Positions 11,029-58,600 of a stretch of 64,000 nucleotides of DNA are shown piece after piece. Source of the stretch: a virus. Each line of letters opens with the position of its first letter. The first letter of the stretch is position 1. The stretch lies in the IMG/VR virus record IMGVR_UViG_3300005096_000005, positions 62,001 through 126,000 of that record; one strand, written 5' to 3'. The position numbers and the translations under genes are program-made. The notes beneath the pieces are model-generated. The model worked only from the letters and a program-made list of their open reading frames with translations. It made no database searches and was not told the DNA's origin.

Positions 11029-11036
11029 GTGTCACC

Positions 11037-34502: not shown

Positions 34503-37500
34503 TCACGCTCCTGGTAATTGAATGTTATACAATAACATCTGATCTCTCAATCTCGTGTCTGCCCCTAACAGGCCATAAACCTCCCCCGGATTCCAGATTG
34601 TAGAATGGTGAAGTATCCCACTTTCCGGCAATTCGATCCTGGGCGTTTCGGTCTTGACATTCGGCATCGACACCTTGACCTGCGTTGGTCCCTGGGCTTC
34701 GATATAAGCATGGCTCGACGCGCTGACCGTACTGGCCTGCGACATCTCTCCAACTCTCGGCGTTGCCCCTCCCTGTTTCGCGAGACGCTTATACTGTTCC
34801 CCCACATAATCAGCTTCGAGAACCTGTTTGGTACCGGAAGACATTCTGTCCATCATATTACTCGCTATGTCTTCCATCGCGTCGTCCTGTTGCCGAGCCA
34901 TTCCGCGAAGGGCATCTCGAGCTTCAGCAATTGGCCGATCTCCCTGACTCATTATACTCGGAACACCCGCCTTAACGCCAGAGGTTGACTGAAGTGATTC
35001 TGCTGCGGCGGTCGGTCCCATGCGCGGGTCTACGCTGGTACGCGCAGTAGAAACCATCTCTCTATCTATAGAAGTTCCCGCCAACGGCAACTTATTGAGT
35101 CCGGGTTCCACCCCTCCCGTAAGAGCTGAAGCGTGACCTTCATTAAGACGGCTCTGCGGGACATACATCTCAGCCCCCATGTCTGTCCTCACCTGCATCC
35201 AGGGATCCGGGTGTGCTACTCGCGGCGGAATCTTATATTCGGGCGCTTTAACATGAATACGGGAAGTCTCCAGAGTGCGGCCGGCCGCCCCAACCGCTTC
35301 GTCGATACCACCAACACCCATCAAGAGGCCGCTCTGTCTTACGCCAAGACCGTGCTGTCCTGAAACAGCCGCCTTCATGGTAGCGATCTCTGCCCTGAGA
35401 GGTCCAGTCGCATCTTCTGCGATCTTGCCATGCAACATAGCTCTAAACACTTTCTGTTGAGCGAGACTTCTCCCCGAGGCGTTTGCTGCTTCCTGCAGCT
35501 TGTCCATGGGAATTCTCATTCCACCTCTCTTTGCGCTGATCGCATCAACCGTTTTGAGGATGCGCTCTGTTTCTCTCCGGAGCAACTGCGGACTCAACTC
35601 AACCACCCCCGTAGGAGCGCGTGTCACGTTCACGCCGTCCACCGACAACAAATCCCTGACAAGGTTATCTACCTGTATCGCCTTTTGCACGTCATGGCCA
35701 GAACCCGGAATCAGAACTCTGTTGACTGCCGTAGGGTGTAGTTTGCCCGTCTCATTCAGCATGATTGCAGCACCAGTTATCGTTTCCGGAATATCTGGAA
35801 TCGGCCCCGGAACCCTGGTTTGTGATAACTTAACCGGCGTAGACATAGAAACAGCAAGATCTCTCTGGGTTGACACAGCGCCTTCTTTTCTGTATGGGTG
35901 CCTGAGCTTCTCCGGGCCAAGTTCCCGCGGCAGAACTGTCGACGTTTGAGCACTTTCGCCAATGATTCCCGCCATCTTCTTGTTGTGCTCAGCCAACGAC
36001 TCCGTCATAGCCTGTATCTCTTCCTTGTATACCGAATTGGCTTCCTGCAGTGCCAACACCGACTGCATCTCGGAGTCCACAAACTCCCTGACAGTATCGC
36101 GATAACGAGACACTTCTCGTGTAAGGTTGTCTGCTGTCTCCGCGATAGGTCGAGACACAATCCTCGGAGGTATCAATGGGCTCGTAGAAACTACCTTGTC
36201 CCACCCTCCGGCTTCACGAACTTCCACCAGTCGACGCTCTGTCTCTGATATCAGTTTATTGCTACGGACTATAGATTTGTCTAACTGCTTGAGAAGCGGC
36301 CCTCTCTGTGCCTCCAGCATCTCGGTCATCCCGCTCGCCCTGCCGAACCAACTTACTGACGAGTGCACCGCCGAATCAAACGCTCCTGCGGCCCTGGCTG
36401 CCTGAGTTCGTAACGCGGTACCTCCTACCCCTACCATACGCCCCGCTCTGGCCATAAGATTCTCAATGAATACGGACGTCTTGCCTCCAAAAGCGGCGAG
36501 CTGATCCGCGTCTCTCATGGTCATGTACGCAAGGTTGGTGGCTGACAGTTGTGACGTTATGCCTCTACTTTGGCCCATAACCTTAATAGGTCTCAAAGCA
36601 TCGCCACTTCCCTGAAACACTGGGAGATAACCCATTCGTGTCATTCTGGCTATAACAGCAGGTTGTACTGTAGGTTTCACGGGCCTTTGGACTTGACGGA
36701 CAGATTGCAGGATGTCTATTGCGATCTTGTCCGGGATACCGATAGAGGACACCATCTTCTTGAGGGCAAACTTAATCGGCACAACCGGTGGTCTGATCCC
36801 TCCGATAAACTCTCCGGGGACGCCCATCTCAGCAGCCATGTGGCCCCTGGTGTGTGGACCCATTCCGCCTGCCATACTTGGCCGTCGATTGTATGTACTC
36901 TGGACATTGCGCCGATGAGCTATCCGGTCCACCTGTGGAGTAGTCCCTCTTTGGACCTGGAGCCGCCTGAGATTGGCAGGGTCGTAAGGGTCTCTTCTGT
37001 GGCCTGCCCCCGTCAGTTTGCGAAAGATAGCGGGTACGACGATAACCCCAACGGCCAGTCCGGCTATCAGTTTTCCTCTACCCTTCACTACGCTCTGAAG
37101 GGCTTCCTTGGCTCCACTTCCCCGAGACGCAACACCCTCTATCAGCTCGTCCAACTGCTCCAGAATGTGTTTTTCTGCCGGGCGTGGCGGCGGAATAGTT
37201 ACGGTTCTTGTACTGGAAGCTCTCGATGGTGGTGGGCTCCCCAGTGGGTTGCGATGTTTTACTACCGACTCTGTCGGACTGGGAACGTGGCCTGTTTTAA
37301 TGGAACCGGAGTTTTTCACATACTTGGGAAGGTCATGTCCTGCTTTAGTCATTGACCACAGGTTATAGCCCACAGCTTTCATTCGTACGAATGAGTCTTC
37401 GCCTGCCAGTTCTTTAAGTTCGCGCTCTATCAGGTCGGCGCTTTCCATTGCACTCCGACCTCTCTCTGCAACCTTGATCTCGAACTTCTTCAGAGGTCGT

Positions 37501-37796
37501 CCGTCCGGTGTCGCAAGCTCATTCTTGCTAACCAAACGTGTTTCCTTCTTACCTTTGGCAACTTCAACCCCAATTCGCCCTCTTGCGACAGCTACCTCCT
37601 CGAGCTGCTTTTTTGTCATTACCAATATATCGCTCGTGGCTGGCTCTCCAGCCTCGTCGAAACTGAACCTAAAAACTTCTATTGTGCCAGAATTGGCGTC
37701 AACTGTTTTACTTACGACATAGCCAAAGCCCTCGGACCCCGGACTGGTCCAGAATGTACCCGGTCGGGTTGTGTCTTCATGGAGTGGGACCATCAT
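34503..37796 (-). CDS. Large helical tail protein with one membrane-like segment (about 1097 aa)
   Basis: The ATG at 37796 is my preferred start, 2 nt after the upstream stop with GAGGTGG upstream. A GTG at 37811 inside the previous gene would add five residues. The N-terminal 100 residues are beta-rich. A single hydrophobic stretch, L-I-A-G-L-A-V-G-V-I-V-V-P-A-I, lies near residue 250, flanked by basic, Pro-rich sequence. The remainder is Ala/Arg/Glu-rich helix with long low-complexity linkers. No catalytic motif was seen. Its place between the tape-measure region and the hub, and its composition, fit a protein carried in the tail lumen or attached to the hub and possibly ejected; this is inference. 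Confidence 0.75.
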   Translation of the reverse strand: MMVPLHEDTTRPGTFWTSPGSEGFGYVVSKTVDANSGTIEVFRFSFDEAGEPATSDILVMTKKQLEEVAVARGRIGVEVAKGKKETRLVSKNELATPDGRPLKKFEIKVAERGRSAMESADLIERELKELAGEDSFVRMKAVGYNLWSMTKAGHDLPKYVKNSGSIKTGHVPSPTESVVKHRNPLGSPPPSRASSTRTVTIPPPRPAEKHILEQLDELIEGVASRGSGAKEALQSVVKGRGKLIAGLAVGVIVVPAIFRKLTGAGHRRDPYDPANLRRLQVQRGTTPQVDRIAHRRNVQSTYNRRPSMAGGMGPHTRGHMAAEMGVPGEFIGGIRPPVVPIKFALKKMVSSIGIPDKIAIDILQSVRQVQRPVKPTVQPAVIARMTRMGYLPVFQGSGDALRPIKVMGQSRGITSQLSATNLAYMTMRDADQLAAFGGKTSVFIENLMARAGRMVGVGGTALRTQAARAAGAFDSAVHSSVSWFGRASGMTEMLEAQRGPLLKQLDKSIVRSNKLISETERRLVEVREAGGWDKVVSTSPLIPPRIVSRPIAETADNLTREVSRYRDTVREFVDSEMQSVLALQEANSVYKEEIQAMTESLAEHNKKMAGIIGESAQTSTVLPRELGPEKLRHPYRKEGAVSTQRDLAVSMSTPVKLSQTRVPGPIPDIPETITGAAIMLNETGKLHPTAVNRVLIPGSGHDVQKAIQVDNLVRDLLSVDGVNVTRAPTGVVELSPQLLRRETERILKTVDAISAKRGGMRIPMDKLQEAANASGRSLAQQKVFRAMLHGKIAEDATGPLRAEIATMKAAVSGQHGLGVRQSGLLMGVGGIDEAVGAAGRTLETSRIHVKAPEYKIPPRVAHPDPWMQVRTDMGAEMYVPQSRLNEGHASALTGGVEPGLNKLPLAGTSIDREMVSTARTSVDPRMGPTAAAESLQSTSGVKAGVPSIMSQGDRPIAEARDALRGMARQQDDAMEDIASNMMDRMSSGTKQVLEADYVGEQYKRLAKQGGATPRVGEMSQASTVSASSHAYIEAQGPTQVKVSMPNVKTETPRIELPESGILHHSTIWNPGEVYGLLGADTRLRDQMLLYNIQLPGA

Positions 37797-37798
37797 TT

Positions 37799-40700
37799 TC
37801 AAAGCGTCCACCTCGACAACATTGGTCTCTCGTTCGCAATTCTGTTGGCCAGCACCATCTTGCCAAATCTATTAAGGTCACGAGCCTGCTCGTCATTCTC
37901 CTCTTCCAGTTCTCTATTGACAGGGAACGGTACCTCCTCAGCAACAGCGGCCTGAAGAGCGTTTTGCAATGTGTTTGCCTGCTCGTCGCTTTCTATTCCT
38001 GAGGCGTTAATGTCTACCATGACTCTGGCCTTCTGCAGTCTCGGATTCTCCACAGGGATGCGCAAATCGGGTGAGGGTCTGTGAATTCCCCCACGCAATG
38101 GGAAAGACCTCCTGAACCCCTGAGGTTTATGGTCCTGCTCTAGCGGGTCGGTAAACATCCGGTATCCAGCATACGCTCCCGCCGCAGCTATTCCAAGAAT
38201 ACCCAGAGGCGTTAATGGTTTCTTTGTCTTTGCAATGGCCTCCGTCACTTCTCTTTCAATGTCACGTGTTGCAACGTGAGCGGCAACCGACGAATCTACA
38301 GCTTCTACAACATCTTTAGCCACTCCTCCGACCTGAGAAGCACCTCTGACCGAGAGCCCTTCGCCAAAGGGAATGTTTGCCATATCCGGCTTGGCGTATC
38401 GCGCTATAATTTGAGAGAACCCGGCCAGGTCGTCCCGACCCTGGTCAATACTCCGTCGAAGCTGTGCGAGTACACGGCGACCTTCGTCTGTCAGAAAACG
38501 CTGTCCGCCTTCTTCATACACAAAGTCTCCGATACGTCGCCCTGTGTGTTTGCCTGTCGGGATGATGACACGCTCAAGAACCTCCCTCACACGGGACACC
38601 TGAGCAGCAGATAACTCCGACGGGTCACGGAAGAAGTCGGCCCCTACACCTGCCAGAATATCGGGACTGGCTCCGGTCATATGGCTGAGGTACTGCTCTA
38701 ATGCCGCAGCCTGATCCTGCACCGGCCCAAAAAACTTGTTTGCATACACCTTGTTTACGGTATTGAGAGCATCTCTCACTTTCCACTTGTGAAACACCCT
38801 CTCTTTGCCCTGTTCGCCCAACAGAAAGGCGAATCTCTTTTTCTCCTCTACAGTGGCGCCTACAAGATTTGAGCTTGTCCATACCGGAAGTGGGGAGGCT
38901 CCCGGCGATACGGCATCGAGCGCCTGGACGTAATTGTTAATGACCTTCGTGGCGTCTGACAATTCACTGTACGGCGTTGAGAAGAATTTGCTGCTCGGGT
39001 CAATATAAGCGTATGTGGACGGCTTTAACTCCCCTGTATGCGCCTTTATACTAACAACCGTAGCAAGGGCGGTGCGCACCCGTGACGGCTTGATGTCTCC
39101 GGCATACGTGTTAACAAACTTGTTCATGCGATTCAACAACACCGGATCGACATCACTAAAGGGTATCTCTCCTGTCGCCAGCGGTTTCAATACCGGGGCT
39201 ATCTCTCTACTGATCTCGTTAAACTCTTGAACAAGATCCTGCGGCCTGGGTAACCTGAGAGGATCAATCTTCGCAAACAAGTTTGCTCTGAATAGATTGC
39301 CGAAATCCTCTCCGGCCTGACGTTCCATCATTCTTATGAGGGGGTCCAAACCTATGCTCTCATGAATGTTTCGCAAACTCTCGTGCAACATAGCCTTGGA
39401 GCGTAGAGGTAATATGTAAGCCTGTTCGCCAAGTCCCAACTCCATGATGGGCTCAATATTCCATCGGCGTGCCGTGGTGGCCCCCATGACAGCTTCAAGA
39501 GCCTCGTCCGTCATGTGGTCGCCTACTTCCATCAGATCCATAAACTTGGCAACCTGATCTTCCGTGAAGGACAACCCCTTCATAATCTGTGCCGCATGTG
39601 CGGTAGCCTCTCCGAACGACCTAAGCCCAAGCCTACGCATCCTGTACTTCAGGGATTCCTTCAACAGTTCAGAACGCTCAGCTCCCAATATTGCAAGAGA
39701 AGCTTCTTCGGCCACCAGAAACTCCTTGCTAAATATCCCCGCAGGATGAACAGACTTCGAGGCGTCAATCATAGGTTGCCACTTCTTGCTGGGATTGACC
39801 TCGGCGAATACCCGTGCGACATCCTCCATCAGCGTTTTGTCAGTTCCTACTATTGCTCCTGCACCTGGCGAAGTAAGCGACTGGGCTGCTGTCTCTGCCG
39901 CTTTCTCAATTGTCAGAGCCTTTGCTGCCTTCTGGTTGTAATCGAGCAGTATGTTCCATACCTCGCCTCGCATCTCCTGCCCGACCTCCTGAGCCTCAAA
40001 GAACCGCTTAACCACAAGGTCCCTGGTAACGTCGTCTATTCCCTGCAGCCCGGCAAGTTCTTGTGCGATACGCTTCTCATCAGCCTTAACACCAGCAGCT
40101 CGTGCGATAGCCAGGATGTTGTCTTTCATCTGCTCTGGAGTCAACCGCGTGTCGAGTAGTTTCGCCAGTACGTCTTCGTCCACATAACGATAGCCTTCAA
40201 TGGTCCTCATGTTTCTCAGTCCGTACGTCTCTTCCGGCGTGGACTGCCATAACCCCATAAGAGAAGCTGGAGTCAATGCGTCTCCGGGTGGAACCGCCTT
40301 ATTAACCCGACTCAAGGCCACCTTCATGCTAAGGCTCGCCTCTGCTCCCGTGTCATTGAGCACCCGAATACGCTCTCCCTGCGTCAGAAAACCTTCTCCC
40401 ACCTGTTGCTCTGCCAGGCTGGCAAAGTACTGACTGTCAGGGCCAATAGGCGTTTGAGTGATAACGTCCTGCACAACGCGCGGCCTGATAACACCAGACA
40501 CGGCTTCTGCAATAGAGATTTTGCGGATCTCATCACTGTTCTCAATAGCTATGCGAGCTACCCTGTCGTCTCGAAGCTTGATCTGAGCATGCCCGGCGTC
40601 TCTGTCGTAAAGGAAATCGAGCCCTTCGAATGGGGTCACTCCGAGGACCTTCTTGTACTTTTGATCAAGGCGAGCGTGCATTGTGATAATGTCTGCGACG

Positions 40701-42949
40701 TCTGCAGCAACCTCTCCAGAGATCCTGCTGAAGTTGTTCCGCTCCACAGACTCGGCAAGCGCAGTCTCCAGTCCTTTGCGCAGATCAACCACCGCATCCT
40801 TTGCTTCGGCCTTCAACATCACATCCTGTTCGACATAGAGCTGCTTAAGCATCTTGACTGCGGTAGTAAAATCAGCACCCGTCTCCATGGGAACCAATCC
40901 GTGTTTAAGTAGTTCTAAGAACTCAGTGTATCTGCCATGCCCCGCCTTCTCCAGGGCGTCGCGCAAAATCGGGACAGCCTCTTCACCAACACGTACAAAG
41001 CGGGCATCTCTGGCTGAGGCAATAATCCCCTGCAGTTTACTGGCTTCCGGCACCGCCCCCTCGTATACCATCCCCAGGCGTTCTGTTTCCCTGTACGCCT
41101 TAATGATGTCCACTTCTTCCATACGTTTAAAAGAAGGAGCGCCGGGTTCATCTACCCATTCAAAACGCGGTTCTCGCGAAACCTTTTTGGCTCGCTTGTC
41201 TAGCATCATATCCGCAGTGTCCTGCACGTTACCACCAGTGATACCCGGCCCCAGATAATATTGTGCTCCATCGGCCACTACTTTCTTCACACCCCGCGGC
41301 GCAGGCATGTTTGGAGTCGGCTTGCGTACAGTTCGCGATACCCACTCAAAACCCTTCCTGCCCACGGCCTTTTTCCGCATCATCAATCGGGTGACACCAT
41401 CATTAGCCCGTGTCCCTTTGGGTCTGTAGAAAAAGGCAAACTCACCTTCATCCAGTCCAAGCATCTTGTTTAAGAGAACTTGCTGTCTTGCGATATCCGT
41501 CTCCATGAAGTGCCGGGTCACATCCTGCGCCGTGGCGAAGTCGGGCTGAAAGTACCTGAGCGGTCTCAGTACGGTCTCACCGCCAACCCTTTGCACTCTA
41601 TAAGGCTGGCCTGGAATTGCTCCCCTGACAGCACCTACGATGTCTACTACGGTTCCCGGCCTCAACTCCGGTCGTGCCAGTATCCCCATACGGCGAGCAA
41701 GAGTCTGTCCAGCCAGTTGAGCCTGATTGATTGTTATCGGTCTCGTGACGTCACTGAACAGGGCCATGGACGATTCTGAACCAATCCTGGCAACTCTCGC
41801 CAACCTGTTGTCTACCGTAGATCCAAGTACTCTATCTGCCAGCCTGTTATCGTATGACTTGTCGATGAGACGGGACACGTCAGCCCGAAGCCCCACCAGG
41901 TCCTTAATCGCAGCCTCCGCTTCAGGCGTAAGGGCTGTCATCTTCCTGCGCACATCCCCGACAAGAACGTCCAGATCCTTGAGCTTGCGCAGAATAGCCT
42001 CTTTCTGGCCTGCCGGATACGCTCCGGTTCTTATCCCATACCTCAGGTGCTCGCGTTGCAACTGAAGCAGGTCCTTGACAGCGAAGCCACCGGTACGCGC
42101 CCCCTGTAACTGAGCGATACGCCTGGTGGTAATCGTCCGAGCCTCCTCTGCCAGGTTCTGACTCAGCTCCAGCATAAGCTTCTGTGTTTTCTGATATTGT
42201 GCCGTTCTGCTCGGGGTTGCGAACACAGCTTCGACCATGGACGCATCGGGAGCCAGCCCCAGACTGGACATCTGTCCCATAATGCCAAACAGTCCAGCGT
42301 CCTTACCCTCATTGGCAAGGCGTCGCATCATGAAGTCAAGATTCGTGGGGTCGGCATTGTGAAGATTGTCAATCCACTTCCCATGCTCCTTGCCAAAGAA
42401 TATCTCTTTAAGATTATCTGACCATACATCAGTATTTGCGGAGGCCGCTATTCTTGCGAGCTTCTCAAACGCTTTCAAGTCCGGCGACCTCTGTTCTATG
42501 AGGTGCGGGAAGTATTCCTTAAACATACGGGTTGCAGCAGCAGGCCCTCTGGACCTACCGGCACGATCTGCAACATGCTGCCTGGCTACGAACATCATCT
42601 GACTTACCATGTTCGTACCGGCTGTTTCTATCATAACCTGACGAGCGGCCCTGGCTCCAGCAGCTTCTCCGCGCATCCCTATGGAGCCTCCGAACTTGCC
42701 ACCATACTTGGCTCCGGCCCTGAGCTCATCTCTGGTCATACGAGCCACATCGTCAGGTACGGGACTAAACCTCTCTTTGGCTACATTATACTGTTGAACG
42801 ATAAGGTCCTGTGCGCTATCGGGGTCCTCACCAACGATCATATATACACGAGCCTCACGACCGTCAGGCACTTTGCCGTATTGATCGATGGAGTCCACAA
42901 AACTATTGTCGACCCAGACATTCCCTATCTCATATCTCATATTGCTCAT
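37799..42949 (-). CDS. Giant helical tail-lumen or tape-measure-like protein (1716 aa)
   Basis: ATG at 42949 overlaps the upstream stop as ATGA, with no recognisable Shine-Dalgarno site, so translation probably depends on coupling. A second ATG lies at 42940. The protein is almost wholly alpha-helical, rich in Ala, Arg, Glu and Leu, with many Met, as in tape-measure or ejected internal proteins. Near residue 1586 is a hydrophobic Gly/Ala segment (G-I-L-G-I-A-A-A-G-A-Y-A-G-Y). The end is Glu/Asn-rich. No enzyme signature recognised. It could be a second tape-measure component, or extend the function of the 2764-aa protein before it. Confidence 0.75.
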   Translation of the reverse strand: MSNMRYEIGNVWVDNSFVDSIDQYGKVPDGREARVYMIVGEDPDSAQDLIVQQYNVAKERFSPVPDDVARMTRDELRAGAKYGGKFGGSIGMRGEAAGARAARQVMIETAGTNMVSQMMFVARQHVADRAGRSRGPAAATRMFKEYFPHLIEQRSPDLKAFEKLARIAASANTDVWSDNLKEIFFGKEHGKWIDNLHNADPTNLDFMMRRLANEGKDAGLFGIMGQMSSLGLAPDASMVEAVFATPSRTAQYQKTQKLMLELSQNLAEEARTITTRRIAQLQGARTGGFAVKDLLQLQREHLRYGIRTGAYPAGQKEAILRKLKDLDVLVGDVRRKMTALTPEAEAAIKDLVGLRADVSRLIDKSYDNRLADRVLGSTVDNRLARVARIGSESSMALFSDVTRPITINQAQLAGQTLARRMGILARPELRPGTVVDIVGAVRGAIPGQPYRVQRVGGETVLRPLRYFQPDFATAQDVTRHFMETDIARQQVLLNKMLGLDEGEFAFFYRPKGTRANDGVTRLMMRKKAVGRKGFEWVSRTVRKPTPNMPAPRGVKKVVADGAQYYLGPGITGGNVQDTADMMLDKRAKKVSREPRFEWVDEPGAPSFKRMEEVDIIKAYRETERLGMVYEGAVPEASKLQGIIASARDARFVRVGEEAVPILRDALEKAGHGRYTEFLELLKHGLVPMETGADFTTAVKMLKQLYVEQDVMLKAEAKDAVVDLRKGLETALAESVERNNFSRISGEVAADVADIITMHARLDQKYKKVLGVTPFEGLDFLYDRDAGHAQIKLRDDRVARIAIENSDEIRKISIAEAVSGVIRPRVVQDVITQTPIGPDSQYFASLAEQQVGEGFLTQGERIRVLNDTGAEASLSMKVALSRVNKAVPPGDALTPASLMGLWQSTPEETYGLRNMRTIEGYRYVDEDVLAKLLDTRLTPEQMKDNILAIARAAGVKADEKRIAQELAGLQGIDDVTRDLVVKRFFEAQEVGQEMRGEVWNILLDYNQKAAKALTIEKAAETAAQSLTSPGAGAIVGTDKTLMEDVARVFAEVNPSKKWQPMIDASKSVHPAGIFSKEFLVAEEASLAILGAERSELLKESLKYRMRRLGLRSFGEATAHAAQIMKGLSFTEDQVAKFMDLMEVGDHMTDEALEAVMGATTARRWNIEPIMELGLGEQAYILPLRSKAMLHESLRNIHESIGLDPLIRMMERQAGEDFGNLFRANLFAKIDPLRLPRPQDLVQEFNEISREIAPVLKPLATGEIPFSDVDPVLLNRMNKFVNTYAGDIKPSRVRTALATVVSIKAHTGELKPSTYAYIDPSSKFFSTPYSELSDATKVINNYVQALDAVSPGASPLPVWTSSNLVGATVEEKKRFAFLLGEQGKERVFHKWKVRDALNTVNKVYANKFFGPVQDQAAALEQYLSHMTGASPDILAGVGADFFRDPSELSAAQVSRVREVLERVIIPTGKHTGRRIGDFVYEEGGQRFLTDEGRRVLAQLRRSIDQGRDDLAGFSQIIARYAKPDMANIPFGEGLSVRGASQVGGVAKDVVEAVDSSVAAHVATRDIEREVTEAIAKTKKPLTPLGILGIAAAGAYAGYRMFTDPLEQDHKPQGFRRSFPLRGGIHRPSPDLRIPVENPRLQKARVMVDINASGIESDEQANTLQNALQAAVAEEVPFPVNRELEEENDEQARDLNRFGKMVLANRIANERPMLSRWTL

Positions 42950-45900
42950 TGTAGTTCAAACGGAGCGTTTAGTTGTTGCAAACGCTCCGAGTCCTCGTGT
43001 GCACTTTCTATCTCTTTATGATAGCCTTCTTTATGTAGAGCCCCAATGATCTCTCCAGTAAAGTCTCTTCGCATATTCAGTCGAAGGTCGATTCGGTTTT
43101 CGTGATAGTCCTGCATATCTACCTTGATATCAGCGTCCCGAACTCCGGCCCCATGCAAAACAGCACGCAGTCTGTGCTCCAGGGAGTTCCTTTTGAAACT
43201 CCCGTTCCTCCAGTCTAATACCCTGACTCTGTTGGCCTCTGCGGCCCTTGCCACGTCGTCCCATAACCCGATCCGCTTTGCGTTGATACCCTCATTCTTT
43301 GCAACCTTGTACTTGTATTCGTCCAGGTTGACGTTCGGATTCCACCCTTCCCACTGCGGTCCCGGTAGCGCGTGAGTTGCGAAGTAACGCTTCAGATCAG
43401 GTTTCCTCGCTTCCACTGCGCGCCATTCCGACATCCATCTGGGAGAGTTTGTTGCCCATGCCCGAGCGAGGAACCTTTTGAGGTTGTCTGGCGTCTGATT
43501 GTATATCCTCTCCCGCTCCTTCTCCGATCTCGTGTTGGCGAAGATCGGATAGAACTCACGTATCTGCGCCGGCCATGCGGCCATAACCTGTCTCTGGTTC
43601 CATACATCGGCCGCATAGGCGGTTCCTTTGAACCTGCGTTTGTATTCATTGGCATAATCAACTATCGGAAGCTGCGGGTGTTGACGGCCCGGGTCCATCT
43701 TGTCCATATCAATGCCCACATATTGGAGTGCCTGTTTATACCTCGAATACAGACCCCGGAACTTGACATACTCGAGCATATCAAAGTATTCATTCAACTC
43801 CCATTCCTTCTCCCTAATGTCTGGAATGGGCGCTTTGCGGCCACGAAGTCTCGCCCTAAAGCGAGACACCACAGACATGCCACCGCCCACCAACCCTCCA
43901 ATTAAAGCGCCAATGATTCGGTACGGGCCTCGCTTAAAGAACAGGGAACCAAGTGCGGCCCCCAAACCGGCAGACACGACAGGGTTATGTCGCGCAAACC
44001 CCCGATACGCCGGTACCAGAATAGCGCTAACCGGCCTGCCCCAGTCGGTGAAGTCGTTTCCGTACAGATAGTTCCTTTCATATTGCTCGGTAGCGGATCT
44101 AACCTGGAGAAACTTTGTGTGAAAGGGAGTGTCCATGTGAGCGAACTTTTCCCACATCCAACCAAGAGTTCTCTCTACCGCAGAAGCGTCCTTTGGATCG
44201 GGTTTACCAACATAGCGATACTCTGTCTTGCGATACTTCTGAATCCTTCGCTTATGGTTCTCCAGAGTCCGCTCAACCTCACTCCACCTGCCCTGTTGCA
44301 TAATCGCTTCCTTGTCCCGAAACATCCTTCGCCTCATAGCCCAGAAAGACTGGGAGTAAGGAGCCACATCTGCAAGAATCTTGAACTTGTCTACATCACT
44401 ATAGAACTCAGGTCTGTTCAGGATACCCTTCCTGTCCCAGTCGGACACAATCTGCCGCGCATGTTCTACAGTTTCCAGGTCACGTTGCAGCCTCTCCGGG
44501 TCGTAATGAACTTTGAATACTTTGGTCACATCCGGCTTGTCTCTTGCTGTGTAGTATATGAACCCGAACGGAAGCCCCTGTGAATACAGGTAGAAATTGA
44601 CCTGGGACATGTGCTCTTGCTGCGGCGCCTCAAGCTCCTTGATGGCCTTCGCCGACTTTGTTTTGATCTCCACTACGGTGTTATAACCGTTCTCCATTCT
44701 CACTACTGCATCAATGTGCCCACTCACCTTGGTTCTGGGATCGAACACGAAGCGCTCAGCCTCAATCAGAGAGCCCTCTTTAGCCCACTGCGCCTGCAGC
44801 CTCCGGTGGGCCTTGGTGCCTTCATACGTGGGCGAACCTGGCCCTTCATACGGCAACCTGCCTAAACCTTTTCCGTTGGGGTCATAGTCGTGTGCTTCAC
44901 GGCCCAGGTTTAGGAAGGACGCCACAGTAGTCTTCAAGTCTCGACCAAGAGATGATGCGCGGAACTGTTCAATGCCATAGTTTCCATGATACGCCCGAAG
45001 GGTTGGGTGTAACTTCTCGTATCCAGGTCCCGGCAGTCTGGCCTCGCCAAAAGCCACCTTTGTAAACGGATCTCCTTTGTGAAAATCTATATAATAGTTC
45101 TGCTCAACCCCGGTGGTTCCCGGCATCCACGACGGCATCTTGTTCAAGATGGGGTTGTACTCAAGAATCTGACGGCGTCTGTGTGGCAGAAAACGACGCC
45201 CTATCTCAGACACACCTCCGCCAAGTCCACCGATACCCTGGTCCCAAAACCACCTCTCAGCCCCATAGGCCCTATCGGCTCTCTGAGCCACCGGCTTCTG
45301 CGCTCCCAGGTCCCCGTAGCCATACTTGTCCTGCGTAAAGAAGGTAGACGCAAACCCGAAAATACCCGCTGTCTCCGTTATGTTATAGTGAATCTGTCCA
45401 AGCCTGTAGTACGGATCGTTGGGATGAATGACCTCTTCCGGATTGATCTTACGGTGGAAGTAGCTGAGGCGCCGCGACATTCTCCGCCTCATCTTTCGTC
45501 TGTCATCGGTATTGATGGCGGTAATTTGGTTCTCTGCCGAATGATCTTCCGACATTACCGGGATAGCCTGACCTGTCGGAGTTGCTCCTGCAAGAAGCCC
45601 AACGTATGTAGGGGTGACAGCTCCCGTTCCTCCTCCCCCTGGACCTATCAGACGGACTCCCTGTGTCGTTCCCTGACCAAGCTGTTCCGGTCCTGGGGTG
45701 GTCCCAAGCTCGATGAGCGCTGCCTCCAGTGCCGGGTGCCTGTTTCTCTGACCTCCAAGGAATGCGGCTCTGGCGTTTAGTTCTTCACGATGCATAACCT
45801 TGTACGGTTTAATGATACGCCCTACCGTTGCGTTGAGTATTCCACCGAACGGCATAGTCTCCTCGAACGCTCCTCCGGTTAGCGGGTAGGGCCTGTCGGC

Positions 45901-48900
45901 ATAATGCTTCTTCTCCCACCAATACGGGTCGGTCAGCCTTTTAAGGGGAGACAGAGGATAGCGCGGAGTTGGTAGCCAATAGTGTTGCCAGAACTCGTCG
46001 CTACCTCCCCACAAAGTATCCTCGCGGTATCCGCTGGTTCCTCGACGGTACCAATTCGGCACCTGAGCGGTAATACGACCGCCTCCCCATGGACTGTTAC
46101 CGAGAAGCCACCAACGACCGCGACGTACGTCTTCGGTACCTTCTCTGTACCACTCCTTAAGTTCCTCCTCGTTTTGCGGGACGTTAAACCCAAGTGCACC
46201 CGCGATCATCCCGGGTGGAGACTCCATGGCAATATCCATACCCGGGTACGCCTCATGAATTCTCTTGAATTCGTCTGTTAAACCCACCGTGTCGAACACC
46301 TTGGCGATGTCCAGGCGCAACCCTACATAAATATTGGCGAGTCTTCGGGAAAGCCTGACCCTTGGTGTGTCGGGAAGACTGAATGCGTCGTCTGCTTTCT
46401 CGGACTCCCAATCGATGTATGCCAACAGCCCTGCGCCTGCAACAACCGGAGCTACACGATACTTGAACAGGTTATAATAAGTTCTGGAAGCTGTTCCCAG
46501 CTTATCAGGAGACAGAGAAAAACCAAGACCGTACTCACCGAGACCACGGCTGAGGCGCTGTGTCAAATAGGTGGGCCAGAACATCGTGGTTGAAAGGTGG
46601 TCCAGATCTGTGGTAAGTTTGCCACCCTCCCACTTGTCCGGCGAAAATTGCTTCCACATCTTTCTGATCACAGTAGCAAGACCGTGCTCATCCTGTCCTG
46701 AATAAAGACGACTCAGGTTCTTCCACGTTTCTTTGATACTACCCGTCACATCGAATGGGTCAAAACGGAAAAGGCTCTTCTGGAGCATCAGGTTCTCGCC
46801 AAGCCCTCGACGGTACACATCCGCAAACTCATCGTACGGAGGGAACTTCTGGTACCACTTTCCGAAATGTTTATTCGCTGATGCCTGCAACCTGTTCACA
46901 AAACCCTCGCTAACATCTACAGGATCACGAGTGCTTGTGGAGACCACTTCGTACACGCCCTCTTCGACCGGCCGCATACTAACCCTGCCTTTTTGAAATG
47001 CCTCGCTCAGGTTTATTCCACGCTCTTTAGCCTTTTGCTCCAGGACATCCATCAACTGTTCGAAAGTCGGATCGCCTGCCACACCAACCTTCATTAGCGA
47101 ATCTGTCCGCACCGTCTGTGACGTTCTGGGTGCAAACAATTTGAGGGCCTCCTCATAAGTGTCAACAAAAGCTTTCTGTCTGACAGCAGGCCCGTGCCCT
47201 GCTACCTTCCGCAAATTGAACAGGTCGAAGGTGCGATGCATATTCTCAACTTCCACGTCCGTAAGAACAGTACCAAGCTGATCGATAAACCGCCTTGCAT
47301 TATCGATCTCACTGAGGGCGCTGCCAACGTAATACTCGTTTAAAGCCTCCCTCGCGGCTCGCCCTACCGTCTTGACAATCTCTTCATCTGTTTCAAGAAA
47401 AGGAATAAACGGTGAAGGAAGTCCTGGTCGTACATCAATACGCGCTGGACGTGTCGGGTCGATCTGGGAGCGGAGCATCTTCATGGTCTTTGATAACGGT
47501 GCGTATTCAAGTTGTTCCTTCCTGCGTTCCAACTCAAGTATCTGCTCGCTCAGGTCCTGAATTCTCCTGCCTCTCATAACCGCCAGGTTCTGGGCTATCT
47601 GTTTTGCATCACTGACATAATCGAGAGGAGATTCCGGACCACCAATCGCCGCCGCCTTGGTTTCTTGTTCCGTGAGCCGGTCGACAAGCTTCCTGGCATC
47701 CTTCATGGCCATGTGCTCTCCGCCGACTTCCTTCTCTGCAAAGTCGATGAAGTCTTCGATCATATCCTTCATCTCTGGCCTGTTTTTATAAGTGTCGGCG
47801 AACTCTCTCATAATCTGGCGCTTGTCAAACGACTTCGGCCCGTTCATGATTCTGTGAGAGATAGACTCAAACAAAATCTGACGCTCTTCAGGCATTGCCC
47901 ATTCCACATACTTATCCCCAGAATATGGGCGAACCTTCTCAACAGGAGCCAGCGGCCCCCACGTCTCCGGCTTACCCGCCTTAATCTTAGTTTCGTATGT
48001 TCTTGCCCATCTGCTGGCGAGCGCATGTGCATCCAGCTCCGAACTACTATAAAGACTCATGCGGTCAAACTGAGCGATACGTTCCAACACTTCGTCAACC
48101 TGTCCCGTGAGGCGTTCCCGCGCCGCAAGGAACTCCGCCTGGCTGATCTTTCCAGCCCCCAGCATATTGATAAGCTCTTCCTGTCTGCCGATAAGGGCCT
48201 GACCTTCTTTGGTGGCCTCCATCCAATTCTTAGACAGCGGCGCCAAACCGGAGTCTGCCATAAGGCGCTGTTCAACCCTGCCCTGAAAACTCATCAACTC
48301 CTCTACCGCTTGTTCCTTCATCTGCTTGCGCAGTGCCATAGAATCGGCTACTCCACCAGGATCTATCGCCCCTTCCTGAAAGAACCTTTCAAATGTACTC
48401 GTTCGCCACTTCTCAGACCGGGTGGGAACAACACCACCGCCCGCTGCCAGGTCCGCACCACGCTGAGCGAGAATCTCCTCGGCAGTCTTGACCTGCATCT
48501 CCCGGGTCGCTTCTTTATATCCTGCTTTGAATGGCTTGATGTCATAGCCTACCTGGTCCATTGTTTCACGATACAAACGCCATAGATCACTCCGCTGCTC
48601 TCTCTGGAGTTTCACCTTCCTGGCCGGGACCTTGACGACAGCACCGTCTCTTGTCGTCGTGAATCCTACCCCGGCTTTTTCCAATGCATCCTCTAACTGA
48701 GACTTCAGTTTGGACGGCATTTGTATCTCACGGGACTTGACCGCCTCATGGATCTGCAATAATCGATCCTGGACTGGCGTTCCTTTCTGGAACTTGAAGT
48801 GTTGCTTGAACAGGTACTGCTGCTTCTTATCAAAGTGGGGGATACCGCCCCGCTGAGCCGCCTCGATGTATCTGAGAAGGAACCTGTTCTGCTGACGTTC

Positions 48901-51240
48901 GAGTTTGTATATGTCTCGTTCGATATCGGCCGCATCACCATGCCTAACGATATTAAACAGGTGTTCCAGGGCGTCGGCGTCAGTTCTGAGATACGTAGAG
49001 AAGGGCTTCTCCATGCCATCGATCCTGTGGGTTACTTCAAGCATCTTGGATAGAGCATCGACGGACTCCGCGGAACCGAGCACCTGCGCTCTCTCGGTGG
49101 CCTGTTTCACAGGCATCCCCTTGACCTGGTGCAGGTAGGTAGCGAGATCGTTGTCGCCCTTCTTTGCCCATTCCAACAGCTCGGAGAGCTTGTCCCTGGT
49201 CGCGCCCGTCATCGAGGTGGCGTCCTTCTCGAGAATCCTCTCCACTACTCCGAACACGTCCTTTGCCCCCATGGGCTCTCCTGTTGTTCGGCGCAGATCC
49301 TTGACTATGTTTAAAACTTCAATCTCACGTCCGGCCTCAGTAGCCGCTTTCGCTTCCTCGGCCAGTCGCTTTGCTATGTAATTCGGATTAGAGGCTTTGT
49401 ACGGATCTTTCCAATGTCCTATAAGGCGCTGAAAGAACCCTGTTGGTTCCCGATTCTGGTTGAAGTCGAGCATCTTGAATACTTTGCCGATCGCCGGATT
49501 CTCATTCAGCTTGCCGCCCCGCATCATCGCCATATCTTCCGTTATCTCTTTACCAAAGAAGATATTATCAAAGATCCAGCGCATAGGCCCAAAGCGATTG
49601 GTCACCGGATTCAACCCAACTCCGAAGGGCATCTCCTCCGGTTTCATAAAAGCACCCGTCTCCAGATTAAACAACCGGGCGCCCCCTTTAGAGTGCCCCT
49701 GGCCGAGTACCAGCATCTGCTGTTTGATGTTCCCGGCCTTATCGATAGCATGTTCCCATCCAGATACCTTTTTGACCCATCCGAGTTCAGGATGTTCAGT
49801 TCCAAAGTGAAGAAGCTGATACGGCGCCATCCGTCTGTTCTCTCTTAAGGCAGAGTGAAAGAACAATTTGGCGGGATTGAATCCCACAATAGGAATCTGG
49901 AAGTTCCGCTCAAAGGCCCCGGCTATATCGTCCAGTCCAAAGCCGACCTTTCTCAAATCGATAACCTTGCCTGTCGGGTCCTTAAATATGAACGGGTCCA
50001 CGACCACATTGCCAAGCCGTTTTACATACTGCTGTTCTGCGTTGGCGAGAATACGTGACTTCTGAAGTTCGAACTTTGCGAGCTTCATCGCCTGTTCTTC
50101 CGTGAGGTTGCCGAACATTCTCTCGGCGGCCGGTGTACGCAAATAATCCTTCACCGCCGCTTCACCAATGTCGTCAGCCAGAGCTCCGGGGATAGGAACA
50201 TACTCGGCTCTCTTCCCAAAGAAACCAACAAGGTCGGGGATATTAAATGCTTTGAGTCCAGGTCCCTCTGCTACATCCTGAATTGTGGCAAGCTTCCAAC
50301 CCGCCATTCCCTGGACCATACGAGAGAAAGGATGAGCTGCCTGATAAACGTCCTGTCCCATAGTCGCGGATACTGCATCAATAAGCTTGTTTACTATATC
50401 GCCCCGACCGGCCTGTTCTCTTACCTGTCTAGTGGTCGTGAGCATTATGTTTTGCCAGGCATGAGCTGCTATGTTCGCGTCAGCTGCCGATAACTCCCCT
50501 CCCCCAAGGGCTGCAGCTATGTCTCTCAGTTTCGCTGGCTGGTCCGTCATCAGGGATTCCCAGGACGCAAGCTCTTTAACACCCTGTACGCCACCACCCT
50601 GACCACGATAGCGTTTGCCCATAGTTACCATACGTTGCATCTCGTCCAAAACGCCCATAGCCGGTTCGCTGACGGAATCAATGGGATAACCTATATTAGA
50701 GAGGATTGTTGGTATCTTCTGTCTACTTAGAAAAGAACGAAGCTGCCCCTGCATCTCTGGGGAAAGGTGTTGTGGGGAGCGAATCTCCGTCGCCACGTCT
50801 CCCACATCACGGACAACGCCCCGCATCCCGCGGAGCATATCACCGAGAGCTGTGGCATTGGCCACATTATCTGTAAGGGTTGATCTTGTGGTTGCTGCCG
50901 CTTCCGCAAAGACGCGGCGGGCTGCCTTGAGGTTTTCTCCCGTGAATGCAGAGAACTTCGGCAGTGCGCCAACCGAAGTTCTCCACAAGAGGTTCTGGTC
51001 GGCCAGAAGTCTGAAGTATTGCTCATGGCCTTCCAGAAGAAAACGATGTGCCTGCGAAACCTTTGGGATCTGTCCCGCAAGATGCTCTACAATATCTCCC
51101 ACAAGCGGTCGGACGTACTCAGAGCGAAGAACCTGGCGCCCCAGGAGGGCGGCACCGGCGTATATACCTGCACGGACCAGGAGCGGCGTCTTCTTCCGCT
51201 CGTTTGTGTATGGGGCATCATTGCTGAACTTCGAGATCAT
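42946..51240 (-). CDS. Tape-measure candidate with embedded PD-(D/E)XK nuclease domain (2764 aa)
   Basis: ATG at 51240 overlaps the end of the chaperone frame as ATGA, with GGGAG 9 nt upstream. Position directly after the tube and frameshifted chaperone genes is that of a tape-measure gene, and the long helical regions (to about 1450) fit. Hydrophobic segments lie at about 22-38, 1593-1610 and 2425-2458. Residues about 2130-2290 carry the ordered motif set of Cas4/RecB-type PD-(D/E)XK nucleases: G-T-K-A-H2145, G-H-I-D2177, V-E2191-I-K2193, Q2213-V-N-F-Y2217. All expected metal-binding and catalytic positions are present. By the usual rule of about 0.15 nm per residue the tail could be near 400 nm if the whole chain spans it. 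Confidence 0.85.
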   Translation of the reverse strand: MISKFSNDAPYTNERKKTPLLVRAGIYAGAALLGRQVLRSEYVRPLVGDIVEHLAGQIPKVSQAHRFLLEGHEQYFRLLADQNLLWRTSVGALPKFSAFTGENLKAARRVFAEAAATTRSTLTDNVANATALGDMLRGMRGVVRDVGDVATEIRSPQHLSPEMQGQLRSFLSRQKIPTILSNIGYPIDSVSEPAMGVLDEMQRMVTMGKRYRGQGGGVQGVKELASWESLMTDQPAKLRDIAAALGGGELSAADANIAAHAWQNIMLTTTRQVREQAGRGDIVNKLIDAVSATMGQDVYQAAHPFSRMVQGMAGWKLATIQDVAEGPGLKAFNIPDLVGFFGKRAEYVPIPGALADDIGEAAVKDYLRTPAAERMFGNLTEEQAMKLAKFELQKSRILANAEQQYVKRLGNVVVDPFIFKDPTGKVIDLRKVGFGLDDIAGAFERNFQIPIVGFNPAKLFFHSALRENRRMAPYQLLHFGTEHPELGWVKKVSGWEHAIDKAGNIKQQMLVLGQGHSKGGARLFNLETGAFMKPEEMPFGVGLNPVTNRFGPMRWIFDNIFFGKEITEDMAMMRGGKLNENPAIGKVFKMLDFNQNREPTGFFQRLIGHWKDPYKASNPNYIAKRLAEEAKAATEAGREIEVLNIVKDLRRTTGEPMGAKDVFGVVERILEKDATSMTGATRDKLSELLEWAKKGDNDLATYLHQVKGMPVKQATERAQVLGSAESVDALSKMLEVTHRIDGMEKPFSTYLRTDADALEHLFNIVRHGDAADIERDIYKLERQQNRFLLRYIEAAQRGGIPHFDKKQQYLFKQHFKFQKGTPVQDRLLQIHEAVKSREIQMPSKLKSQLEDALEKAGVGFTTTRDGAVVKVPARKVKLQREQRSDLWRLYRETMDQVGYDIKPFKAGYKEATREMQVKTAEEILAQRGADLAAGGGVVPTRSEKWRTSTFERFFQEGAIDPGGVADSMALRKQMKEQAVEELMSFQGRVEQRLMADSGLAPLSKNWMEATKEGQALIGRQEELINMLGAGKISQAEFLAARERLTGQVDEVLERIAQFDRMSLYSSSELDAHALASRWARTYETKIKAGKPETWGPLAPVEKVRPYSGDKYVEWAMPEERQILFESISHRIMNGPKSFDKRQIMREFADTYKNRPEMKDMIEDFIDFAEKEVGGEHMAMKDARKLVDRLTEQETKAAAIGGPESPLDYVSDAKQIAQNLAVMRGRRIQDLSEQILELERRKEQLEYAPLSKTMKMLRSQIDPTRPARIDVRPGLPSPFIPFLETDEEIVKTVGRAAREALNEYYVGSALSEIDNARRFIDQLGTVLTDVEVENMHRTFDLFNLRKVAGHGPAVRQKAFVDTYEEALKLFAPRTSQTVRTDSLMKVGVAGDPTFEQLMDVLEQKAKERGINLSEAFQKGRVSMRPVEEGVYEVVSTSTRDPVDVSEGFVNRLQASANKHFGKWYQKFPPYDEFADVYRRGLGENLMLQKSLFRFDPFDVTGSIKETWKNLSRLYSGQDEHGLATVIRKMWKQFSPDKWEGGKLTTDLDHLSTTMFWPTYLTQRLSRGLGEYGLGFSLSPDKLGTASRTYYNLFKYRVAPVVAGAGLLAYIDWESEKADDAFSLPDTPRVRLSRRLANIYVGLRLDIAKVFDTVGLTDEFKRIHEAYPGMDIAMESPPGMIAGALGFNVPQNEEELKEWYREGTEDVRRGRWWLLGNSPWGGGRITAQVPNWYRRGTSGYREDTLWGGSDEFWQHYWLPTPRYPLSPLKRLTDPYWWEKKHYADRPYPLTGGAFEETMPFGGILNATVGRIIKPYKVMHREELNARAAFLGGQRNRHPALEAALIELGTTPGPEQLGQGTTQGVRLIGPGGGGTGAVTPTYVGLLAGATPTGQAIPVMSEDHSAENQITAINTDDRRKMRRRMSRRLSYFHRKINPEEVIHPNDPYYRLGQIHYNITETAGIFGFASTFFTQDKYGYGDLGAQKPVAQRADRAYGAERWFWDQGIGGLGGGVSEIGRRFLPHRRRQILEYNPILNKMPSWMPGTTGVEQNYYIDFHKGDPFTKVAFGEARLPGPGYEKLHPTLRAYHGNYGIEQFRASSLGRDLKTTVASFLNLGREAHDYDPNGKGLGRLPYEGPGSPTYEGTKAHRRLQAQWAKEGSLIEAERFVFDPRTKVSGHIDAVVRMENGYNTVVEIKTKSAKAIKELEAPQQEHMSQVNFYLYSQGLPFGFIYYTARDKPDVTKVFKVHYDPERLQRDLETVEHARQIVSDWDRKGILNRPEFYSDVDKFKILADVAPYSQSFWAMRRRMFRDKEAIMQQGRWSEVERTLENHKRRIQKYRKTEYRYVGKPDPKDASAVERTLGWMWEKFAHMDTPFHTKFLQVRSATEQYERNYLYGNDFTDWGRPVSAILVPAYRGFARHNPVVSAGLGAALGSLFFKRGPYRIIGALIGGLVGGGMSVVSRFRARLRGRKAPIPDIREKEWELNEYFDMLEYVKFRGLYSRYKQALQYVGIDMDKMDPGRQHPQLPIVDYANEYKRRFKGTAYAADVWNQRQVMAAWPAQIREFYPIFANTRSEKERERIYNQTPDNLKRFLARAWATNSPRWMSEWRAVEARKPDLKRYFATHALPGPQWEGWNPNVNLDEYKYKVAKNEGINAKRIGLWDDVARAAEANRVRVLDWRNGSFKRNSLEHRLRAVLHGAGVRDADIKVDMQDYHENRIDLRLNMRRDFTGEIIGALHKEGYHKEIESAHEDSERLQQLNAPFELQ

Positions 51241-55647: not shown

Positions 55648-55656
55648 CACCTCCTT
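55648..55656 (-). promoter_or_regulatory. Strong ribosome binding site of tail tube gene
   Basis: AAGGAGGTG on the minus strand, 6 nt before the ATG at 55641 and overlapping the sheath stop codon (55657-55655). It is among the best matches in the window, consistent with abundant tube subunit synthesis. Confidence 0.7.
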
Positions 55657-58600
55657 ATCCTTGCGGTAGTGACAGGGACACCACTGTCGTGATCTTTCGG
55701 AGTTCGAGCCATACCACGAGCTCGAGCTCGATCCTCAGTGCGCCGATTATCTGCATGTCCCTGGTTGACAGAATGGTGAAGTTATAATCGCTGAGGACCC
55801 CCGCATCGACCATTGAGCGAAGGAATTCATCCACTTCCGTGTTGAGCGCCATTCGCTGCGGGATTGAGTTAGGCTGTCCGAGGAACGGGTTAGAAACCCT
55901 GCGCACGCCTGCCATAGCAGAGTGTACGACACGAACTGTGGACAGCCTGGTGTAGTCGGACAACCGTCCCGGCTTATTGGGCAGATCTCCGGCCGCGGTA
56001 ATGCCGTCCGTAACATAGGCCACGTTATTGAACTGATACAGCGTAACGTAACGGAAGCCCGTGAGGGCGTCAAGCTGCGCATTGCTGTAGTTATATCCAA
56101 GCGTGCCAATGTTAAGGATCGGTTTATGAGTCGTAGCAGCCTCTGCAGGCAGGGTGGAGGTAAGGGCAGCGTACACGACCTCAAGGGTCGAAGGCTGGCC
56201 TGTCGTTGCCGACAGAATCTCCGGACCTGCACAAACCGAGAGGTAACGTCCGATATCTTCCACTCTTCCATCGATTGGATTCGTGGTTCTGAAGCCGTTG
56301 TACATCGGAGTTACGAAATCGCCCACAGTCTTTGTAAGACGGGTCACGCGAGACTGCACTCCACGCATGGAGGTGTCCGTCGCGGGGGACATAGAGATGA
56401 CTCCAATACGCTCCTGCCCGTTCAATGATGTCTGGTAACAATGTTCGGCCAGTATCTGACCAAAGTTAGTTACCGTGTCATTGCCGTTCGGATCGTTCGG
56501 ATCAGCCCTCAGAGGCTTTCCGTTCGAGTCAACTATGACTATACCGCGAGCCCCATTGTACCAGAATTTGCGGTCACGGCCAAAGTACTTCTTGCGTGAC
56601 TCCGCATCCAGGTACATGTCTACAAGAACTATGATGTCGATAGGTTGGTTTTCCAGCAGTTGAAGCAGTCCGGTATCATACTGTGTGCCGAGCAGCTTCT
56701 GCGCATAGTAGCCTGGGTCCTTGCCCACACCATCATCGCCCCCAATCAGATAAGCGGGGGCAACATCTGTGTTGTCGAGCAGGTTGTGCGGCTTCTCATA
56801 CTGCGGGAAGTTCGCGACAGGGTGGTCGGAGTCCGCAACAAAGCGAGCCTCTACAACCACATTATCACGATGAGAGTTGATACCCACGGTCACGTCCTGA
56901 TAGGACAGTGGCGTTGGGCTGGCGCTGAGGGCGACATCGAACTCAGAGGGGAATCCCTTGCCTGCGGGTTTCGATACACGCATCGTCATCTGGTCCGTCA
57001 CCAAACTCCCCGCCAGGTCGATGGTTACACCAACGCCTGTAGTTGAGGAGGCTCCGTCCCATACGCCATTGCCGTATACGCTTCCAGGGTAGATAGCCCG
57101 CAGATAGAGGGCGACATCGGTGTAATACCAGTACTCACCCGCCTGAAGGGAATTGCCGGAGTTGAGTGTAAAGACAGCGTCTTCATGGTCACTCTTCATG
57201 ACAGTCCCCACAACAGGTGCCTGGCCGCCAGCCCCGCGTTTCATGAGAATGGCTTCACCATTGTCGTCCGCCTTAATGTAAGGAATTCGCAGCGACTCAC
57301 CCGATGCCAGTGCTTCGTCCACAATGATAGAACGTCCGAATATTCCAACAGGTGATCCTTGCAGATAAGGATAGCGATATCCTCCCTCTACAATGTCGGG
57401 ATTTTCGATGTCCTTGACGCGCACCTGCGCAAGCGCCGTTCCTGCTGTGCCCTGTATTACTTCTATGCTGACGGTCTCACCCGTGGGCAGTCCTTCCGGG
57501 TCCATAAGCTCAATCTCTGTAGTGCTATCCTGAATGTAAGGAAGCGTCCAGAGATTCTCGAGCTGACCGTACATAGTTGTCTGCTCTTGAAGAGCTGTGT
57601 TGATCGTGTTTGCTCCTGCAGCTCCGCCAGTGGAATCCTGGTACATTGTACCATACAGACGGAACTCCATGTCTGCTGCAAACATCACTTCCGCCGTGGG
57701 AATCCTGATCTTGCCACCGCTGGGCAACGCTCCTGTCCCATCGGGAACAGCATCGTATACAAAGCCGTCGGCTCCTGCATACACGTCGATAGAGGACACG
57801 AACGCCTTGACGTCATCGTAGAACGTAGCCGCAACCTGAATGTTCAGGCCCGGATCGTTCGAGATGTCAAAGTAGCCTGCCGCGATGTAGATGGCAGATT
57901 CTTGGGCGTCATAGTAGAACAGGTCATCCTGAGTCTCGGTCGGTACCAGCGTGGAACGCTGCAGCTGTACAGTAGCGGCCGTTGTCGTCAGGTCTACCTT
58001 GAGGTTTCCATATTGTGTCGTTCCCACCGCCGGTCCGCCGATATCCTTGTTGCCAAGGGCGGCGTTGTCGTTGGTAAACGGCACGTGATCCGGGTCGCCC
58101 ACATTGACATCGTCCGGATCGAACAGTGTCATTAGCGGGTTGTAGTCCGGATCCCCCGAATCCATACTTCCGATAAACTGAATCTTGACCGGAACAAGCT
58201 CTCCGAGCTGGATCAGATCGGCCGGGTTCGGGACATTTGACGTATCTGCGTCCGTCGGATTCCACGCCTTAACGCCTGTCGTATCGTCGGTGTTCTCCGA
58301 AAGACTCATGGAGTTACCGAGGTTACTTCCGCTCATTCCCGAGGCTTTGGCTTCTACAATGACATACTCCTGGATGTTCCCCAGCCCGTCGTCTACACCT
58401 TCGCGATGAGCTTCGACATACGGGTTGATACCTGCGTCATTGTTGATCGCGCTTGCCAGGTTCACGGCTGTGGCTGTAAGGTCGCCAGAAACAATGTTCC
58501 AGTTAAACCCTCCACCGCCGATCTCTCCGATGAAGCTGGCTGCGTAATCTGTTCCGCCATCTTCGATAGCCACCGTCAAGAGCGGCTGATTGTCAAGACC

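Follow-up and report, generated by a model that had tools for sequence, protein, structure and literature searches.

A Cas4-like PD-(D/E)XK nuclease domain predicted within a large structural protein of the tail in the 0305phi8-36 phage lineage

A nuclease domain of the Cas4/RecB type in a tail protein

A complete PD-(D/E)XK nuclease domain of the Cas4/RecB/lambda-exonuclease type is predicted within a 2764-residue tail structural protein that is encoded on a 64,000-nt stretch, termed the window in the following, of the 170,138-base virus record IMGVR_UViG_3300005096_000005. This protein, the carrier, is the product of an open reading frame (ORF) on the minus strand (42946..51240; coordinates are window positions unless stated otherwise) and belongs to the family of ME3_35, MTATph1_CDS0026 and KLEB27-3 gp031 + gp033. 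Comparisons with PHROGs, Pfam, PDB sequences, AlphaFold and Foldseek place the domain at residues ~2094-2284 (44389..44961, minus strand) and confirm the assignment far beyond chance. A domain of this type had been proposed in a preliminary description, and the PHROGs, PDB-sequence, AlphaFold and Foldseek results bear that proposal out; all six active-site residues had been numbered exactly (H2145, D2177, E2191, K2193, Q2213 and Y2217) and the location was correct, although the limits were drawn slightly too narrowly.

As evidenced by alignment with PD-(D/E)XK/RecB motifs, the domain contains the order H, D, E-x-K, QxxxY. These correspond to H2145 in a G-T-K-A-H motif (44806..44808), which is invariant in ten intact domains found at the same site of tail proteins, the metal ligand D2177 in G-H-I-D (44710..44712), the catalytic E2191-I-K2193 (44662..44670) and Q2213-V-N-F-Y2217 (44590..44604), all on the minus strand and identified in the alignment of the ten domains. 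The best PHROGs match is PHROG_1706 ('CRISPR/Cas system associated', E=8.7e-17), with a further family at 1e-10 and phrog_1990, a Cas4-domain exonuclease, at 1.6e-9. Pfam PDDEXK_1 is passed narrowly (22.3 against a gathering score of 22), the PADLOC Cas4 models match at E~5e-9, and Cas4 SSO0001 (4ic1) is matched with E=0.0022 by the single sequence and with 2.5e-7 when a homologue profile is used.

The structure predicted by AlphaFold2 with 12 homologues (predicted local distance difference test, pLDDT, 86.4; predicted template-modeling score, pTM, 0.81) has an alpha-beta-beta-beta-alpha-beta core, with helices (H) and strands (E) at H44-61, E65-74, E79-88, E94-102, H115-128 and E132-139 in model numbering. 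The lack of an alpha-beta-beta-beta-alpha core had been named beforehand as grounds for abandoning the assignment, and this core is present in the model. Even when predicted within 1075 residues of the carrier, the domain retains a pLDDT mostly >90. The top Foldseek matches in the PDB are Cas4 SSO0001 (1.8e-6), LHK-Exo, MGME1, the Cas4 protein Pcal_0546 and lambda exonuclease. Note that the window domain contains no cysteine, that each of the other nine intact tail domains has none or one, and that the curated Cas4 model TIGR00372 is not passed (29.3 bits against a cut-off of 65). Because the iron-sulfur (Fe-S) cluster cysteines of Cas4 and AddB are missing, we classify the domain from its sequence as Cas4-like rather than as Cas4 proper.

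Across the ten intact same-site domains the mean identity is 45%, with a minimum of 30%. Of the 172 alignment columns 30 are invariant, and these include every one of the six catalytic residues (chance p=1.8e-5), whose codons each show synonymous changes. The identity of the nuclease domains follows that of the tail proteins (Spearman 0.82; 0 of 5000 Mantel permutations), and conservation is higher in the nuclease (0.45) than in its flanks (0.37). The invariant active site with its silent codon variation, the correlation of identities and the higher conservation of the nuclease thus argue for a selected catalytic role in phages with an intact domain, and for co-inheritance of the nuclease with the tail protein rather than recent shuffling.

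Insertion at one exact site and distribution among relatives

Profile scans of IMG/VR yielded 83 locus hits for the carrier family, which after additions and removal of near-copies gave 69 distinct rows; profiles were needed for this, as IMG/VR scans with a single sequence, either the whole carrier or the domain alone, returned no match. The loci compared are labeled L002, L003 and so on up to L111, with L002 being MTATph1 and L003 Bacillus phage KLEB27-3. The carrier has two conserved flanks on the minus strand: the upstream flank, residues 1690-2090 (44971..46173), contains '...YYIDFHKGDPFTKVAFGEARLPGPGYEKLH', and the downstream flank, residues 2285-2764 (42949..44388), starts with 'KFKILADVAPYS'. 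In MTATph1 and others the sequence 'RLPGEAYMRTHQLHPDAYGVYGAVDRFLILADVAPYS' runs uninterrupted through the nuclease site, while in the window carrier ~190 residues lie between 'RLPGPGYEKLH...YGIEQF' and 'KFKILADVAPYS'. Homologues without the nuclease have RLPG..Y..H joined straight to [KR]F.ILADV, so that the domain represents an in-frame insertion at a single exact position.

Nine more IMG/VR phages (L012/L013, L039, L094, L096, L097, L098, L108, L109 and L111) have an intact domain at the nuclease site, which rules out an artefact of a single protein. In L048 an intact copy is located at the N-terminus of the tail protein instead, and the same module occurs in proteins of 783-1016 amino acids in L099 (5095-7779), L103 (301-2649) and L104 (6844-9891), those of L099 and L104 being encoded beside the terminase large subunit. 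The L048 copy groups with this latter module, which suggests transfer between genes. In the tree of the tail protein a single clade holds eight intact carriers, with the window and L013 placed outside of it, and presence and absence require four changes. One old gain followed by losses and decay is the simplest reading of this distribution, albeit not a proven one. The top match in BFVD to both of our models is A7KUR9 (two 965-aa pieces, ~1930 aa), with a template-modeling (TM) score of 0.78 for the nuclease alone and E=2.3e-36 for the whole C-terminal region; judging from its accession block, this entry would belong to 0305phi8-36.

Around the nuclease site lies a hot spot of mobile elements, as judged from the sequences of relatives, whose inteins and introns were recognized separately. 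The tail gene of L067 (8239-9437, and likewise in L068) is interrupted precisely at the nuclease site by a group I intron that carries a LAGLIDADG gene and matches Rfam RF00028 with E=2.6e-8, below the gathering score. In KLEB27-3 (L003, 21497-22595) a segment with an HNH-like, homing-endonuclease-like ORF splits the gene ~40 codons upstream of this site, the resemblance of this segment to a group I intron being only weak (E=0.028). LAGLIDADG inteins are present in the tail proteins of L109 (residues ~1162-1537 and ~1770-2214 of ORF 3359-11818), L111 (~1436-1851) and L087 (~1437-1980), and one intein of L109 ends just ahead of the invariant serine that opens the nuclease domain. An intein or group I intron as the source of the nuclease insert was rejected, since inspection by eye revealed neither an N-terminal Cys/Ser nor a C-terminal His-Asn junction. 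A further feature of the region is a degenerate staphylococcal-nuclease (SNase)-like segment ~60 residues after 'ILADVAPYS' in L002 (MTATph1), L003, L012, L014, L060, L075 and others. It lacks the catalytic residues, is absent from the window carrier and was assigned through weak Pfam matches (PF00565 in 3 of 7 members, best E=6e-4), a profile search of the PDB with this segment having returned chance matches only.

Identity and gene context of the carrier

By sequence, the phage that encodes the carrier belongs to the 0305phi8-36 lineage, with Moorella phage MTATph1, Bacillus phage KLEB27-3 and Acinetobacter phage ME3 as relatives. Homology of the carrier to its family spans residues 1508-2089 and 2283-2732, and the KLEB27-3 and ME3 homologues, to which it is related by both homology and synteny, are labeled as structural virion proteins by their depositors. 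As in the relatives, the gene is situated between ORFs in the tail-chaperonin position and the tape-measure and hub genes, in an operon in which the sheath, tube-position and chaperone-position genes come first and the hub follows.

The preliminary description had treated the carrier as a tape-measure candidate, and this identification is probably wrong. In the 0305phi8-36 lineage the hub is gp147/orf147 and the tape measure is orf146, the latter having been assigned mainly from its length (PMC2147016). According to their annotations, ME3_35 is a homologue of 0305phi8-36 YP_001429636 and ME3_37 one of the hub YP_001429638; the gene order of the carrier matches that of ME3_35, and the next gene after this position is the published tape measure of the lineage. 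We thus infer that the carrier is the equivalent of 0305phi8-36 gp145. Because of the synteny with ME3_35 and the position of the hub, with amino acid composition in agreement, the label of tape measure was probably off by one gene, both assignments being non-experimental. In composition, proteins in the gp146 position mostly are low in tryptophan (0.3-1.1%) and often also in proline, while the carrier family contains 1.3-1.9% tryptophan.

Two proteins separate the carrier from the hub homologue in the window, all encoded on the minus strand. A 1716-aa protein (37799..42949) occupies the slot of the assigned tape measure gp146 according to synteny and its low tryptophan content, and a tblastn search with it against 50,697 phage records gave no match. 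By gene order, a 1102-aa protein (34503..37811) lies between this position and the hub, with no family match in PHROGs or Pfam. The 2635-aa baseplate hub or tail lysin (26594..34501) is a homologue of MTATph1_CDS0032, KLEB27-3 gp035 and ME3_37. The tail sheath of 1953 residues (55655..61516, minus strand) has its sheath fold confined to residues ~1614-1949, and the ~1600 N-terminal residues have no counterpart in Pfam. A scan of genome_contigs for the tail family of the carrier found no copy in a bacterial host.

Stand-alone relatives and a second exonuclease

The closest stand-alone phage relatives of the domain retain the Fe-S cluster cysteines and mostly are encoded beside RecA, RuvC, Holliday-junction resolvases, DNA polymerase or Beta, i.e. 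by sequence and context they are DNA-end recombination enzymes. The same phage possesses a separate Cas4-like exonuclease of 301 residues with Fe-S-type cysteines, located outside the window at ~45952-46857 of the record (L007 5952-6857), within a replication region where inspection by eye identified a replicative helicase, a RuvC-like ORF and a DNA-ligase-like ORF as its neighbors. Because the genome holds this separate enzyme, the tail copy is predicted to be an additional, specialized nuclease. The idea that the tail nuclease substitutes for a stand-alone exonuclease was dropped, as the latter was found in the genome of the window and in those of two other carriers.

Possible functions of the tail-borne nuclease

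Domain identity, fold, insertion site, active-site conservation, co-inheritance and the second exonuclease were computed directly, and what we infer from there concerns presence in the virion, entry into the cell, enzymatic activity, and the substrate and target. The explanation that we favor, with about even confidence, is that the nuclease is active, is carried in the virion and acts when DNA enters the cell. The domain would cleave DNA in a metal-dependent manner, most likely as an exonuclease on DNA ends, and would have lost its Fe-S cysteines and become part of a tail structural protein conserved in the 0305phi8-36 lineage. With homologues annotated as structural, the carrier would be assembled into the virion, placing a nuclease in each particle. 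An attack on host or competitor DNA may follow from this, and we consider it possible, though less likely than not, that in a widespread group of large myophages the tail itself brings an active Cas4-like exonuclease into the host as a weapon against host, plasmid or competing-phage DNA, before phage genes are expressed.

Several points weigh against an active nuclease at DNA entry. The domain is absent from 55 of the 69 rows of the tree, and thus from most family members, and three same-site copies have a broken active site, with E-x-K replaced by QIQ in L014 (7869-8414), NIR in L083 (9404-10021) and PIK in L087 (9509-10015). Apparently, these enzymes have decayed yet remain part of the tail protein, so that catalysis seems dispensable in some lineages. 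The nuclease does reside in a large tail structural protein, as the preliminary description had it, but its placement in the tail lumen is only a possibility, because the carrier probably is not the tape measure. An exonuclease for DNA ends, if located on the delivery path, would also endanger the linear DNA of the phage itself unless it were regulated or spatially separated, or the DNA protected. A glycine-zipper helical segment at residues 2421-2454 (43879..43980, minus strand) is compatible with membrane insertion and thereby with the favored explanation, with GxxxG found in 39 of the 48 family segments examined and helices predicted there, but its match to PF05433 (E=0.0027) is below the cut-off.

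An unlikely, yet serious alternative is that the nuclease works on the DNA of its own phage, trimming or processing the leading end in the virion or at entry, or starting recombination or circularization of the incoming genome. It is serious because in L099 and L104 the module is encoded next to the terminase; the recombination exonucleases among the stand-alone relatives accord with it, as does the precedent of T4 gp4, a virion-associated DNase of restriction-endonuclease (REase) fold that is needed for packaging (PMC7824862). The carrier, however, is part of the tail operon rather than of a packaging module, the replication module of the phage already includes a Cas4-like exonuclease, and most relatives do without the tail domain. 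We assign a similarly low probability to a mainly structural or DNA-gripping role, in which a captured fold serves as a scaffold or DNA-end clamp and does not cut. The decayed copies in L014, L083 and L087 make this a rival, and the SNase-like segment nearby has likewise been found without catalytic residues in many family members. It is at odds with the six catalytic residues, which are invariant in ten intact copies in spite of identities down to 30% and whose codons vary silently; such a pattern would be anticipated only under selection for catalysis, or at least for metal binding.

That the domain faces outward and degrades extracellular or envelope-associated DNA, such as that of biofilms, during adsorption is improbable: the hub of the BtI1 prophage does have an SNase domain where a relative has wall-degrading domains (PMC2147016), but the carrier gene adjoins tape-measure and hub genes and not fibers. 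A mobile element of the homing type, although inserted at a hot spot for introns, inteins and an HNH-like gene, is very improbable for an in-frame insert of ~190 residues that lacks intein splicing residues or an intron, is related to recombination exonucleases rather than homing enzymes and is inherited with the tail protein.

Comparison with known systems

In line with the preliminary description, we found no published account in the open-access literature of a tail structural protein with a PD-(D/E)XK domain, or of a tail or virion nuclease of such a kind. If active in the virion, the domain would represent a tail-borne DNA nuclease of a type that we did not find described, and the tail delivery of enzymes acting on DNA at entry would become directly testable. 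If A7KUR9 belongs to phage 0305phi8-36, an isolated phage may be available for this purpose. The nuclease site, where the domain can be intact, decayed or missing, also provides a natural series for the capture and loss of enzymes by virion proteins.

In fold, motif order and best sequence and structure matches the domain resembles the Cas4/RecB exonucleases (SSO0001, 4ic1; Pcal_0546, 4r5q) and the phage Cas4-domain exonucleases of PHROG 1706/1990, from which it differs in lacking Fe-S cysteines and in being fused inside a tail protein. Lambda exonuclease, which acts on DNA ends, LHK-Exo and YqaJ-type enzymes share the core fold (Foldseek E 1e-5 to 7e-4) and have no Fe-S cluster either; these enzymes form free toroidal trimers that cooperate with an annealing protein, whereas here the domain is part of a structural protein of ~2000-2800 residues.

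By analogy, three systems serve as precedents of kind. Polyvalent proteins are very large multidomain phage proteins that were proposed to enter with the DNA and carry effectors including DNases (PMC5512222). Their hallmark domains (metallopeptidase, ParB-like DNase, LPD and others) were not found by Pfam in the 2764-aa carrier; one BFVD relative bears an LPD label. T4 gp4 is likewise a virion-associated DNase of REase fold, but as a small head-completion protein for packaging it is not a domain of a tail protein (PMC7824862). The SNase domain of the BtI1 hub, thought to be derived from a stand-alone gene, originates from the same lineage and is likewise a case of a nuclease fold joined to a large protein of the tail, with a different fold and in a different protein, the homologue of the hub gp147 (PMC2147016).
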